Position numbers and translations under genes: made by a program
Assembly (NCBI RefSeq): GCF_000025545.1
Contig: NC_013889.1
Span: 2,163,501 to 2,227,500, forward strand
DNA: 64,000 nt
Reading direction: 5' to 3'
DNA from: Thioalkalivibrio sp. K90mix
Lineage (GTDB): Bacteria > Pseudomonadota > Gammaproteobacteria > Ectothiorhodospirales > Ectothiorhodospiraceae
Shown: positions 13,945 through 42,588 of the stretch, piece by piece
Layout: the number at the start of each line of letters is the position of its first letter
Position numbering within the stretch: the first letter of the stretch is position 1
Notes under the pieces: generated by a model
What the model saw: only the letters and a program-made list of their open reading frames with translations
What the model was told of the DNA's origin: nothing
Database searches by the model: none

Positions 13945-13972
13945 CGCGGTTCATTTCCTCGCACGGGACTGA

Positions 13973-14240
13973 GGGAAACACTGATCAATGTACACGCTCG
14001 CGCTCGAGTCGCTTTTGCGTGCGTTTAATGCGCGGCGACTGCCGTGCAGTCATTCTGCACAAGGGAGCCGCAACGCCGTTCCCGCGCAAAAGCGGCCGAG
14101 CCCCTTCGGGGTTGGTACCCCAGGTTCCGCGATCCTGCGTTGCACCGCTTGCGGCTAGAACCACTACCCGCTGCACGCCGCGCCTTGTCTCGGAAAACCT
14201 GGGGTACCAACGCGAGTGTGCACATCGATCAGTGTTTCCC
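13973..14240. mobile_element. MITE-like foldback element, copy 1
   Basis: This 268-bp element has 30-bp terminal inverted repeats that begin GGGAAACACTGATC on both sides (left 13973-14002, right on the opposite strand ending 14240), with about three mismatches. A second inverted pair lies inside: GTTGGTACCCCAGG near 14120 and its complement near 14195-14212. It carries no ORF. Blocks such as CCGTGCAGTCATTCTGCAC and CCACTACCCGCTGCACG are shared with copy 2 at 41791-42099. CTAG follows the right end and CTGAG precedes the left, so any target duplication is imperfect. It is probably mobilised in trans by an IS5-like transposase, which is inference. Confidence 0.7.
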
Positions 14241-14344
14241 TAGGGGAGTCGCTGAACGCGACACTACCCGAGAACGCCACCCGCCGCATCGTCATCCCAC
14301 CGCAGCACCCCACTTCGCCATCCCTGCCACAGCACAGCGACGAG

Positions 14345-14485
14345 CCGGGATCTCCATGGCCATGCACTACCCTAACGCCCGAGATCCCGGATAACCGCTC
14401 TGCGGTTTCCGGGATGACGACACAGAAGCTAATAAACGGCGTCCCGTATTGCCCGGGTCCCTGTGGGAGCCTGCTTGCAGGCGAA
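14345..14485. repeat. REP-like inverted repeats
   Basis: Between the foldback element and hrpB, GCCGGGATCTCC is inverted by GAGATCCCGG, followed by GGATAACCGCTCTGCGGTTTCC, which can fold into a second hairpin. Then comes the half-repeat GTGGGAGCCTGCTTGCAGGCGAA (14464-14485), a REP class also found at 25186. The gene-free stretch 13945-14508 contains this and the foldback element; the rest shows no signal. Confidence 0.5.
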
Positions 14486-14508
14486 GCCCCTGCCAGCCCC
14501 GACCCTGC

Positions 14509-17022
14509 CTACCCGCGCCGCTTCGTATGCCGCGTGGCCGGCGCATTCCATGGATCCTCCGGCCAGGGGTGTTTTGGATAGCGCCCCTTGAGCTCGCGGC
14601 GCACGTCGGGATAGCCGTTCTCCCAGAAGCTCTTCAGATCCTGGGTGACCTGCACCGGGCGCCGCGCCGGCGACAGCAGGTGCAGCACCAGCGCCATGCG
14701 GCCGCCCGCTACCCGGGGTGTCTCGCCCAGGCCGAACAGCTCCTGCAGCTTCACCGCCAGCACCGGGGGGTCCTGCGTGTAATCAATGCGATGGGCGGAA
14801 CCAGAGGGGACCTCGATCCGCGCCGGCGCCTCCCGCTCCAGTTGCTGCTGGTGATCCCAGTCCAGCCGCGCGCGCAGGATCGCTGCGAGGTCCAGCCGCT
14901 CCAGATCCCGACGCCGTGTGATCCCGGCCAGATACGGCCCCAACCAGTCCTCAAGGGCCCTCAGCAGCGCGGTGTCGCGCAGATCCGGAAAGCCGCCCTC
15001 GGGCATCGCCTCGTGCAACAGCTGGATGCGCGCGCGCAGCTGGGTCGCGGTGTCATCCCAGGGCAGCAGCGCAAGGCCCTCGCGGCGCAGCCGTTCGCAC
15101 CAGCGCGGGATGGTGGCGGCGGGGTCGTCCAGCGCGACCATCTGCCGCTCCACCACCAGCGTGCCGATCCGCCGGACCCGCGCGTTCTCCAGCCGTGCGC
15201 CATCCTCCACCCAGTCGCAGCGCGTCTCGCGATGGAAGAGTTCCGGGGCCTCCTGCTCCAGTGCGGCCAGATCCAGCGCCACCGCACAGCGGATGCGCGC
15301 CTCGCGGTCGGCATCCGTGCAGTCCACCGCGACCAGGTAGTCGGTATGCGCCAGACGCTCGCGTTCCGGCAGCCACGCGCCGCGACCGTTCCCCATCACA
15401 AAGCGCCCGGCCGCCTCGCCGCGACGCCGCGCGATGCGCTCCGGCCAGGCCAGCGCCGCCAGCACGCCCAGCGCCGAACTTTCGTCCAGCACTGCTTCCG
15501 TGCCAACGGGGCGGCCCCCGACGCGTGCCAGCGCCTGCTCCAGACGCCGCAGACCGGATGGCCAGGCCCGGCCACCCGAGCGGCGCGCGCGCTCCAGGCG
15601 CGCGCCCAGCTCCAGCGGTGGCTCCGGCCCGGCCACGCCGGGTTCTTCCACGGCTACCGCCAGTTCGCAGGCCAGGCGCGCCAGCCCCCGCTCCCGGCCC
15701 CGCAACAGCATATGCGCCAGACGCGGGTGGGCCGGCAGGCGCAGCAGGGCCTGCCCGTGCCCGGTCACCCGCCCGTCGGCATCCACCGCGCCCAGCTCCG
15801 CAAGGACCGCCTGTGCGGAGGCCAGGCCCTGCGCGGGCGGCGGCTCCAGCCAGTCCAGCTCGGCCACCGCCTCGCCCCAACCGGCCAGTTCCAGGGCCAG
15901 CGGCAGCAGGTCCACCTGCTGCATCCCCGGGGTGGCATAGTCCGGGCGCGCGACCTCGTCGGCCCGCGACCACAGGCGGATCGCCACCCCTGACTCAGTG
16001 CGCCCGGCGCGCCCGGCCCGCTGCTCGGCGGCAGCCTTCGAGGCCGGCCGCGTCACCAGTCGCGAGAGCCCGGTCGCGGCATCGAAGCGCGGCTCGCGGG
16101 AAAGCCCCGTGTCGATCACCACGCGCACGCCCTCGATGGTCAGGCTGGTCTCGGCGATATCGGTCGCCAGCACCACCTTGCGCTCGCCCGCCGGCGCCGG
16201 GCGCACGGCCCGGGCCTGCTCCTGGGCCGATAGCCGGCCGAACAGCGGTGCGATACGCGCGGGGCCGGCAGGCGTGTCCACCCCCTCGCCCAGGCGCGCG
16301 GCCACTTCGCGGATCTCGCGCTCGCCGGGCAGGAAGACCAGGATCGAGCCCGGCTCCACCGCCAGCGCGTCCCGAACCGCCTGTGCCACACCGTCGGCCA
16401 GCGGCGCATCCTTCGCCGTTGGGGCATAACGGACCTCGACCGGGAACTGCCGCCCACGGGCGCGCAGCACCGCAACGGCATCTGCCTCCGGGCCGGCCAG
16501 CAGCCGGGCCACGGCCTCGTCGTCGAGGGTCGCCGACATCACCACGATGCGCAGCTCCGGGCGCAGCAGCCGACGCACCTGCAGGGCAAAGGCCAGCGCC
16601 AGCTCGGCCTCCGGCCGGCGCAGATGGAATTCGTCGAAGACCACCGTACCAACCCCTTCCAGCAGCGGGTCGCCCTGGATGCGCCGCAGGAACAGGCCAT
16701 CGGTCACCAGCTCCACCCGGGTGCGCTCGGAGACCTTCTGCTCGTCGCGCACGCGGTAGCCGACCGTCTGCCCGGCCGATTCGCCCAGCTGCCCCGCCAT
16801 ATAGGTCGCCGCCATGCGCGCGGCCAGCCGGCGCGGCTGCAGCACGATCACGCGGTCCTCGCGGTTGCAGGCGGCCAGATGCAGCGGGACGCGGGTGGTC
16901 TTGCCGGCACCGGGCTCGGCCACCAGCACAGCGGCACCGCGCGATTCCAGCGCAGCATCCAGGGGATTCAGGAGATCTTCCAGCGCCCGGGCCTGCGGCG
17001 CCTCGCTCGGATCTTTACTCAT
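14509..17022 (-). CDS. hrpB: ATP-dependent helicase HrpB
   Basis: HrpB is a DEAH-type superfamily 2 RNA helicase of proteobacteria. The 837-residue protein has Walker A EPGAGKTT at about residues 36-43, the DExH box as FDEFHLR (DEFH), SAT in VVMSATLD, and motifs V-VI in TDIAETSLTIEGVRVVIDTG and QRAGRAGRTESGVAIRLW. The C-terminal HrpB-specific region includes YPDVRRELKGRYPKHPWPEDPW, a hallmark of the family. Length is typical. It is followed on the same strand by the preceding adaptor gene's end, 9 bp away, but functional linkage is not obvious. Its cellular role remains poorly defined in general. Confidence 0.95.
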   Translation of the reverse strand: MSKDPSEAPQARALEDLLNPLDAALESRGAAVLVAEPGAGKTTRVPLHLAACNREDRVIVLQPRRLAARMAATYMAGQLGESAGQTVGYRVRDEQKVSERTRVELVTDGLFLRRIQGDPLLEGVGTVVFDEFHLRRPEAELALAFALQVRRLLRPELRIVVMSATLDDEAVARLLAGPEADAVAVLRARGRQFPVEVRYAPTAKDAPLADGVAQAVRDALAVEPGSILVFLPGEREIREVAARLGEGVDTPAGPARIAPLFGRLSAQEQARAVRPAPAGERKVVLATDIAETSLTIEGVRVVIDTGLSREPRFDAATGLSRLVTRPASKAAAEQRAGRAGRTESGVAIRLWSRADEVARPDYATPGMQQVDLLPLALELAGWGEAVAELDWLEPPPAQGLASAQAVLAELGAVDADGRVTGHGQALLRLPAHPRLAHMLLRGRERGLARLACELAVAVEEPGVAGPEPPLELGARLERARRSGGRAWPSGLRRLEQALARVGGRPVGTEAVLDESSALGVLAALAWPERIARRRGEAAGRFVMGNGRGAWLPERERLAHTDYLVAVDCTDADREARIRCAVALDLAALEQEAPELFHRETRCDWVEDGARLENARVRRIGTLVVERQMVALDDPAATIPRWCERLRREGLALLPWDDTATQLRARIQLLHEAMPEGGFPDLRDTALLRALEDWLGPYLAGITRRRDLERLDLAAILRARLDWDHQQQLEREAPARIEVPSGSAHRIDYTQDPPVLAVKLQELFGLGETPRVAGGRMALVLHLLSPARRPVQVTQDLKSFWENGYPDVRRELKGRYPKHPWPEDPWNAPATRHTKRRG

Positions 17023-41582: not shown

Positions 41583-42588
41583 ATGATCACCCTGCGCCCC
41601 AGTGCCGAACGCGGCCATGCCCGACACGGCTGGCTGGATTCCCGCCACAGCTTCTCGTTTGCCAGTTACTTCGACCCGGAGCACATGGGGGTCTCCGACC
41701 TGCGCGTGCTGAACGAGGACCGGGTCGCACCGGGTGCCGGCTTCGGCGCCCACCCGCATCGGGACATGGAAATCATCACCTGTGTGCTAGGAGACGCTGA
41801 TTGAATCGCGCGTCCGCGCTCGAGTCGCTTTTGCGTGCGAACAAGGCGCGGTGACTGCCGTGCAGTCATTCTGCACAAGGGAACCGCAACGTTGTGCGCG
41901 CGCCCGTTCTTGATAACAACGGGCGGCCGAGCCCCTGCTTTCAATGGCTTGTGGGGTTGGCGCCCCCTGTTCCCCGATCCTGCGTTGCGCCCCGAATCAA
42001 TCAAGAACGGGCGGGTAGAACCACTACCCGCTGCACGACGCGCCTTGTCTCGGAAAACGGGGGGCGCCAACGCGGACGTGCGATTCAATCAGCGTCTCCC
42101 TAGACGGGGCCATCGAGCACCGGGACACGATGGATCACCAGACCCGGCTGAGGGCCGGCGAGGTCCAGGTGATGAGTGCGGGCACGGGCATCCGGCACAG
42201 CGAGTTCAACGCATCAACCACCGATCCGCTGCACTTCCTGCAAATCTGGATCATCCCGGATCACAAGGGTGGCGAACCGTGCTACGCCCAGAAGGATTTT
42301 TCGGGTGCCGGCGGGCACGTCCTGCTGGTCTCGCCCGATGGCCGGGATGGCTCCCTGCCCATCCGGCAGGACGCCTGCATCCACAGGCTCCGGATGGCGC
42401 ACGATGCCACTCGGTTTCCGGCGGACCCGAGCAGGGTCTATTACGTACAGATCACCCGAGGCGAACTGACCCTGAACGACCAGACGATGGCTGCCGGCGA
42501 CGGCGCCACCATCCGCCAGGAACGCGGGCTCGAATTCACCACCGACGGCGAGGCCGAGGCCCTGCTGTTCGATCTGCGCGGCGGCTGA
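41583..42588 (+). pseudogene. Pirin-like gene split by a foldback element
   Basis: The reading frame begins [69 protein letters not shown], the N-terminal cupin of a YhaK/YhhW-type pirin with the HPHRD iron-ligand motif. At 41787-41790 (CTAG) a 309-bp element begins. Removing 41791-42103 joins GTG CTA GAC and restores DGAIEHRD and the remainder (EVQVMSAGTGIRHSEFNAS, LQIWI) as one 230-residue frame, the usual pirin length. The downstream part has a potential ATG at 42130 but would lack the metal-binding cupin half. The intact function would be an iron-dependent cupin (quercetinase-like or regulatory). Confidence 0.88.
41791..42099. mobile_element. MITE-like foldback element, copy 2, inside a pirin gene
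   Basis: This 309-bp element has terminal inverted repeats starting GGAGACGCTGATTGAATCG on both sides (one mismatch and one extra base over ~28 bp) and CTAG on both flanks (41787-41790 and 42100-42103), a 4-bp target duplication. Internal inverted pairs are GTTGGCGCCCCC near 41957-41970 with its complement near 42060-42072, and CCCGTTCTTGA near 41905 with TCAAGAACGGG near 42000. No ORF. It shares blocks such as CCGTGCAGTCATTCTGCAC with copy 1 but has different arms. The CTAG duplication resembles IS5-family target choice (YTAR), so a trans-acting IS5-like transposase is suggested. Confidence 0.85.

Follow-up and report, generated by a model that had tools for sequence, protein, structure and literature searches.

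Among the described systems closest to the element reported here, REPINs consist of two hairpins in opposite orientation, ERIC/RU-type repeats often lie inside operons, and the IS5 family of insertion sequences (IS) has YTAR as its target. Covariation between paired positions is the usual proof of a functional RNA.

Bacterial MITEs, in the available part of their description (PMC10969869), are short and gene-less, with inverted ends, a target duplication and a stable fold, and occur in many copies alongside an IS of that genome whose ends match theirs. The element shares all of these properties; its interior, in contrast, is formed by two homologous hairpin domains and not by a deleted IS, is exchanged at fixed sites, and has the same core in many genera with unrelated arms. 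Judged from sequence, the element appears MITE-like in its working, with an interior without IS origin as far as tested. IS5-family insertion sequences (NCBIfam NF033581) have in common with it the CTAG duplication and the outer ~16 bp, but these outer ends alone, and they carry no hairpin domains. REP, BIME and REPIN palindromes (PMC3116915, PMC3733652) are also dispersed palindromic mobile sequences, and ERIC/RU-type repeats (PMC2759123) are also imperfect intergenic palindromes; from the partial descriptions available, the element appears to be set apart from the former by its 265–311 bp, its arms and its target duplication, and from the latter by size and sequence. Finally, inverted-repeat template switching (PMC8604942, PMC8794818, PMC7202029) is a mutational process and no element; the portions of these papers at hand report that it makes the arms of an inverted repeat alike and flips the spacer between them (PMC8604942), and that RNA hairpins are formed and preserved by it (PMC8794818). 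Homogenised arms and an inverted spacer were also seen here, whereas two-sided changes in resident outer arms were few.

The window analysed is a stretch of 64,000 nucleotides from the genome of Thioalkalivibrio sp. K90mix (2.99 Mb, two contigs). In the accessible parts of the open-licence papers searched, no description of the element was found. We consider it fairly probable that the repeats are gene-less hairpin-dyad elements, moved in trans by an IS5 transposase, whose arms are bound to the site and whose interiors are exchanged, with stems shaped by template switching and by a constraint that acts on the hairpin or cruciform form.

Anatomy of the Two Copies

Both repeats were located where the original prediction had placed them, with limits refined to 13974–14239 and 41790–42099 (both + strand). 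Copy 1 is 266 bp long, has type I arms and is in the short state at all three length modules. Its left outer arm (13974–14001, +, 28 bp counted) pairs with the right outer arm (14212–14239, +). Domain 1 (14002–14104, − strand; 62.8 bits with the domain model R2) is the inverted homologue of domain 2 (14108–14211, + strand; 98.0 bits), and between them lies the central mini-hairpin CCCCTTCGGGG, the short state of module B (14101–14111, +). Domain 2 is composed of a closing stem, the core GCGTTGC...GCGCCTTG and a terminal hairpin with the loop AACCA. The right flank is the target duplication CTAG (14240–14243) and the left flank TGAG (13970–13973) is its decayed counterpart, which reads TTAG in the orthologous copy L161. 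Copy 1 is intergenic, the nearest large neighbour being an HrpB-type helicase gene on the minus strand (14509–17022). A REP-like palindrome, GTGGGAGCCTGCTTGCAGGCGAAG, lies downstream of it at 14455–14495.

Copy 2 is 310 bp long, has type II arms and is long at all three modules. The left (41790–41817, +) and right (42072–42099, +) outer arms are partners; the part of domain 1 matched by R2 on the other strand is 41833–41906 (34.6 bits), and domain 2 occupies 41953–42071 (+, 86.2 bits). The long modules A, B and C lie at 41902–41926, 41932–41956 and 41990–42014, respectively, all on the + strand. CTAG flanks the copy on the left (41787–41790, its last G being also the first arm base as drawn) and on the right (42100–42103). 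Copy 2 interrupts a pirin gene at CTAG, leaving a 5' piece (41583–41789, +; PF02678 profile positions 7–58) and a 3' piece (42103–42588, +; PF02678 positions 59–108 and PF17954), so that PF02678 is continuous across the break (58 | 59).

Of the outer 29 positions, 26 agree between the two arms of copy 1 and 28 between those of copy 2. The inner segments predicted to vary between copies, GTTGGTACCCC / GGGGTACCAAC and GTTGGCGCCCC / GGGGCGCCAAC, were found, each with the matching change on its partner. Two internal conserved strings (20 and 29 bases) were each counted exactly two times in the window, where chance would give 0.03 and 0.00 occurrences.

Family Size, Length Modules and Fold

A 26-base core with up to three mismatches was matched 52 times in the whole source genome (27 forward, 25 reverse), and the same core read backward, used as a control, was matched 0 times. 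By BLAST the element was present in 17 of the 58 genomes searched, the source genome included, 16 of them in the genus and one a weak match elsewhere; among the matches listed, the relatives carrying it include Thioalkalivibrio. When 30 genomes of the genus were scanned with R1, a covariance model built on domain 2, 19 gave matches. From the loci fetched, 240 distinct full copies were retained as the working set; a copy was kept if its profile match came within 12 positions of both ends and exceeded 100 bits, a rule by which copies with decayed arms may be missed.

Most copies are 265–311 bp long and cluster near 266, 281, 296 and 311 bp, because three places each carry a short or a long state of an optional module of ~15 nt. 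The suggestion that the inner segments behave as interchangeable modules was borne out, as eight combinations of the three states occur in the 240 copies (sss 90, sLs 76, LLs 23, Lss 21, LLL 18, LsL 5, sLL 4 and ssL 3). Folding of the four length classes with RNAalifold gave an identical three-way layout of arms (P1), domain 1, mini-hairpin and domain 2. At columns 16–17, two arm types dominate, about 146 against 47 of 196. For the 34 type I copies of the source genome, the mean pairwise difference was 12.2% in the arms and 11.7% in the interior. At L236:2217-2262, two type II arms are joined almost directly in an arms-only remnant.

Target Duplication and a Probable IS5-Family Partner

In 183 independent copies with intact ends, the flanking bases were identical at four positions in 68 copies, at three in 52, at two in 36, at one in 22 and at none in 5; in the control, the next 4 bp outward, all four matched in only 4 of 183. 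The most frequent flank ends (n = 366) were CTAG (150), TTAA (40), CCAG (27) and CTGG (20). The last two, variants of the CTAG target, resemble the bias of very-short-patch repair.

The proposed search for an IS5-like transposase with the same ends was successful. The source genome contains three identical 1.2-kb IS, each with a 321-aa transposase (DDE_Tnp_1; NCBIfam transpos_IS5_4, NF033581), with the ends GGAAACGCTGATCAAT and GGAAACACTGATTTAT and, in two of the three, CTAG flanks on both sides. The outer ~16 bp are common to IS and elements, with about one difference per end from the common copies; beyond these ends the element interior is unlike the IS, and a scan of the three IS copies (L223-L225) gave no match to the hairpin core or domain. 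On this sequence likeness, the IS5-family IS probably moves the small elements in trans. Against such mobilisation stands the sharing of no more than the outer ~16 bp; moreover, a search of genomes from the other genera, drafts among them, found no IS carrying their arms. In one place of the source genome (L091, C1:84310 onward) a type II copy adjoins an IS5 copy, with one CTAG common to both.

An autonomous parent carrying the hairpin domains was looked for and not found: the 20 stretches around solo arms of the source genome yielded the IS5 element only, and a 1.6-kb repeat (L391) proved to be two copies around one ORF. In L391 these are two superfamily copies with TTAACCCGGCAAC arms flanking an ORF of 315 aa, and a composite cassette is possible. 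It had also been considered that the two copies of the window might derive from two different full-length IS parents. This was not borne out: one interior is common to both arm types, and the only full-length IS found has just its outer ~16 bp in common with the elements.

The repeats might be plain MITEs, with arms that are the terminal inverted repeats of several IS lineages, a covariation that is an inherited difference between subfamilies, and a conservation due to recent homologous exchange between strains. The dominance of two arm types fits such an account, as do the target duplication and the IS partner, but the pair types within one arm type do not. Among the 196 independent copies, columns 13/299 carry TA in 87, CG in 82 and GC in 10, and columns 14/298 carry AT in 112, CG in 30, GC in 24 and TA in 17; at both, all four pair types occur inside type I. 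Together with the evidence from orthologous sites and from the superfamily given below, this makes the plain MITE improbable.

Orthologous Insertion Sites

Homologous flanks on both sides were taken as evidence of one insertion in at least two strains, which gave 62 pairs of copies in 31 groups (75 copies). In the most diverged pair of each group, differences were counted at 39 of 1733 sites in the arms and at 120 of 1719 in the 28 bp next to them (p 1.8e-11); for the interior the count was 391 of 6482. In the least diverged pairs the values were 26 of 1733 for the arms and 104 of 1729 for the adjacent 28 bp. A cleaned set of 29 groups, without L114 (doubtful site) and L060 and L076 (internally deleted), gave 29 of 1621 and 110 of 1617, respectively. 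That resident arms diverge so little suggests that the host, or some protein, constrains them. Homologous exchange between strains, as the plain MITE account holds, would bring the adjacent 28 bp along, yet these differ three times more.

The nearest copy, ties included, was the ortholog for 59 of 75 copies when compared by arms and for 22 of 75 when compared by interior. The module state differed in 22 of the 31 groups (20 of 29 in the cleaned set), and in five groups a linked block of five columns in domain 2 switched allele, two more flagged groups being deletions. Copy 1 and its ortholog L161 illustrate this pattern, having arms alike but for two single differences and, in L161, a long module A. 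From the module and nearest-copy data it follows that interiors are swapped between copies and that arms stay with the site.

The original prediction had offered gene conversion between the arms as one source of their paired change. Frequent conversion at resident sites is not supported, because the arm changes in the 31 orthologous pairs, one per group, were one-sided in 34 cases and two-sided in 2 (28 and 0 in the cleaned set). Since two-sided changes in resident arms are so rare (2/36; 0/28), arm copying would be either confined to transposition or slow.

Paired Change in Arms and Stems

The covariation of the two arms, predicted from two copies, holds across the family, with Watson–Crick pairs in 3769 of 3884 cells at arm positions 1–20 of 196 independent copies. 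The mismatch between arms was 1.20 to 1.55 of 28 irrespective of the state of the target duplication. Paired change extends to the interior: in 61 short copies from different sites, pairing was kept by two-sided change in 25 of 96 predicted pairs, and 81 domain-2 sequences, two of which are inverted domains, had 91 cells with two-sided change against 30.3 after shuffling.

The prediction had attributed paired change to selection for a foldback structure. A functional structured RNA read from the + strand, with compensatory changes and mobility as a secondary property, would account for the three-way fold predicted for each length class, for the two-sided changes in domain 2 and in the 96 predicted pairs, and for the slow divergence of the arms in place. 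A selected RNA should accept G-U over A-C, and the parts of the element speak differently in this respect. Arm positions 21–29 do favour G-T over A-C (94 vs 16; shuffled 181 vs 100), and in domain 1 A-C is depleted (47 vs 71 shuffled); both are expected under selection on one strand of RNA or ssDNA and count against the explanation preferred here. However, in arm positions 1–20 the two departures are almost equal (G-T 44, A-C 36; shuffled 248 and 239), domain 2 has hardly any wobble preference (G-T 247, A-C 222), and in the superfamily stems no G-T excess was found (139 vs 144). RNA-foldback selection is thus unsupported as the sole cause, given the near equality in arm positions 1–20 and in the superfamily stems, while the G-T preference in positions 21–29 would fit it. 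With the gene context described below, we regard the RNA explanation as unlikely, though less so than the plain MITE.

Template switching that copies one arm onto the other, joined to a constraint on the hairpin, fits the data better than selection on one RNA strand alone. Both marks of the process are present, namely in-place inversion of a domain and over-long perfect terminal hairpins. Domain 2 is inverted in place between the arms of its closing stem in two of the 240 copies (L229:4699-4802 and L185:3337-3440). The terminal hairpin of domain 2 is 8 bp in 180 of the 229 copies measured and is perfect over 17 bp in L022 and over 14 bp in L138; these long hairpins look like the product of a single event in which one side served as template for the other. 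In the outer arms, arm copying may play a role, with the rarity of two-sided resident changes counting against it.

Gene Context and Coding Potential

Gene calls were obtained with a codon-bias gene finder made for this analysis. Because removing one copy of the target duplication can remove a stop codon, the classes of elements inside a gene are inflated, and tandem contexts only were used. At 181 independent sites, tandem neighbours were on the minus strand of the element in 76 cases and on the plus strand in 21 (p 1.7e-8), a bias of orientation to the neighbouring genes that none of the explanations accounts for. Since 76 of the 97 tandem sites have minus-strand neighbours, read-through would yield the strand opposite to the supposed + RNA. 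Around copy 1, neither a sigma-70-like promoter nor a terminator-like site was detected. At curated scores, no Rfam covariance model matched the window or the two copies, and in 20 superfamily loci Rfam gave no match besides a tRNA piece in L391 and matches at chance level. An orientation bias with respect to replication was not found (58 places, 23 vs 30 with 5 left out, p 0.41); in 20 sampled stretches, the GC skew changed sign near 1.36 Mb and about 2.7 Mb.

The prevalence of minus-strand neighbours and the ~15-nt modules would also suit a protein-coding palindrome of the Rickettsia type, through which host genes are read. Minus frame 0 is long and open in many 266-bp copies, and plus frame 0 has no stops in 113 of 199 copies, a count that amounts to about one observation because the copies are related. 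Yet minus frame 0 is stop-free in only 44 of 199, the B modules bring stops, length differences of 1 nt (265/266, 280/281) break the frame, and of the 100 genes ending in the direction of the element's right end, 51 stop at most 10 nt from it. A coding palindrome is therefore rejected, the element not being open in frame with a host gene, and we consider this explanation very improbable.

Phages gave no match for copy 1. In plasmids, each of two superfamily queries had one short match in Azotobacter.

Dyad Architecture and Superfamily

The broader domain model R2, whose underlying alignment includes antisense self-matches of the same domains, matches domain 2 on the + strand and domain 1 on the − strand, so that each element holds two homologous domains head to head. 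With R1, a like layout was found in two sister genera and in Thioalkalivibrio genomes without the main form. Twelve of 17 such loci were 257–269 bp long with paired arms that do not evidently resemble GGAAACACTGATC, an example being CTAG-TGTCCTGAGTCAGAGATTCG. In the sister genera, the order of the domains flips between copies (L366, L368 and L375 vs L371).

In a sample of the class including one Thioalkalivibrio and the source genome, with at most 10 candidates per genome scored, R2 had matches at E up to 1e-4 in 89 of 369 genomes and 70 of 272 genera. As controls, all six matches in the window up to E 10 lay inside the two copies, and in 400 kb of the source genome all 23 matches below E 1e-4 lay at places already listed by the earlier searches, outside of which there were two weak matches (E 0.006 and 0.007) and three at E 1.6-2.2. 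Among 38 loci (36 from other genomes, two from the source), 29 had two head-to-head domains; of these, 27 had paired arms, and a strict test, which gives an undercount, placed YTAR at each end in 12.

In 71 non-overlapping domains, Watson–Crick pairs filled 2100 of 2571 cells against 1197 ± 19 after shuffling, a percentage that leans upward because the alignment (A6) was fitted to its own model. All four Watson–Crick types occurred at 15 of the 16 pairs of the closing stem, and the conserved letters include GCGTTGC, CTTG..AAGG and GCGCCTTG. Such freely covarying stems are no terminal repeats, which also speaks against the plain MITE. For the dyad elements, it is conceivable, although we hold it only tentatively, that they belong to a mobile superfamily spread across the gammaproteobacteria, with one core, varied arms for different transposases and complementary stems with free letters, kept at gene ends and trading cassettes. 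In Rfam and in those parts of the literature that were available, this superfamily has no name.

Proposed Mechanism and Significance

The dyad, two hairpin domains of ~100 nt head to head around a mini-hairpin and closed by arms of ~29 bp, would be mobilised by a transposase of the IS5 family, with the outer ~16 bp of the arms as its recognition site and YTAR (CTAG, TTAA) as the duplicated target. After insertion, the arms would be constrained, and the interior would be repeatedly overwritten by cassettes of other copies, presumably through ectopic gene conversion. Paired change in stems may arise mainly by hairpin-mediated template switching, which would copy one arm onto the other and sometimes invert the spacer, and complementary stems would be retained by constraint on the hairpin or cruciform form.

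The family is a large natural set in which strong covariation, most stems without wobble preference and a mobile-DNA life style come together, so it can be used to test how far template switching alone imitates RNA selection. At sites where the arms are fixed and the interiors exchanged, gene conversion among dispersed copies can be measured directly, and a core present in nearly a quarter of the genomes sampled (89/369) is a reason to look for the protein by which it is recognised. If the superfamily is real, the inherited unit of this transposable element would be its structure and not its sequence.
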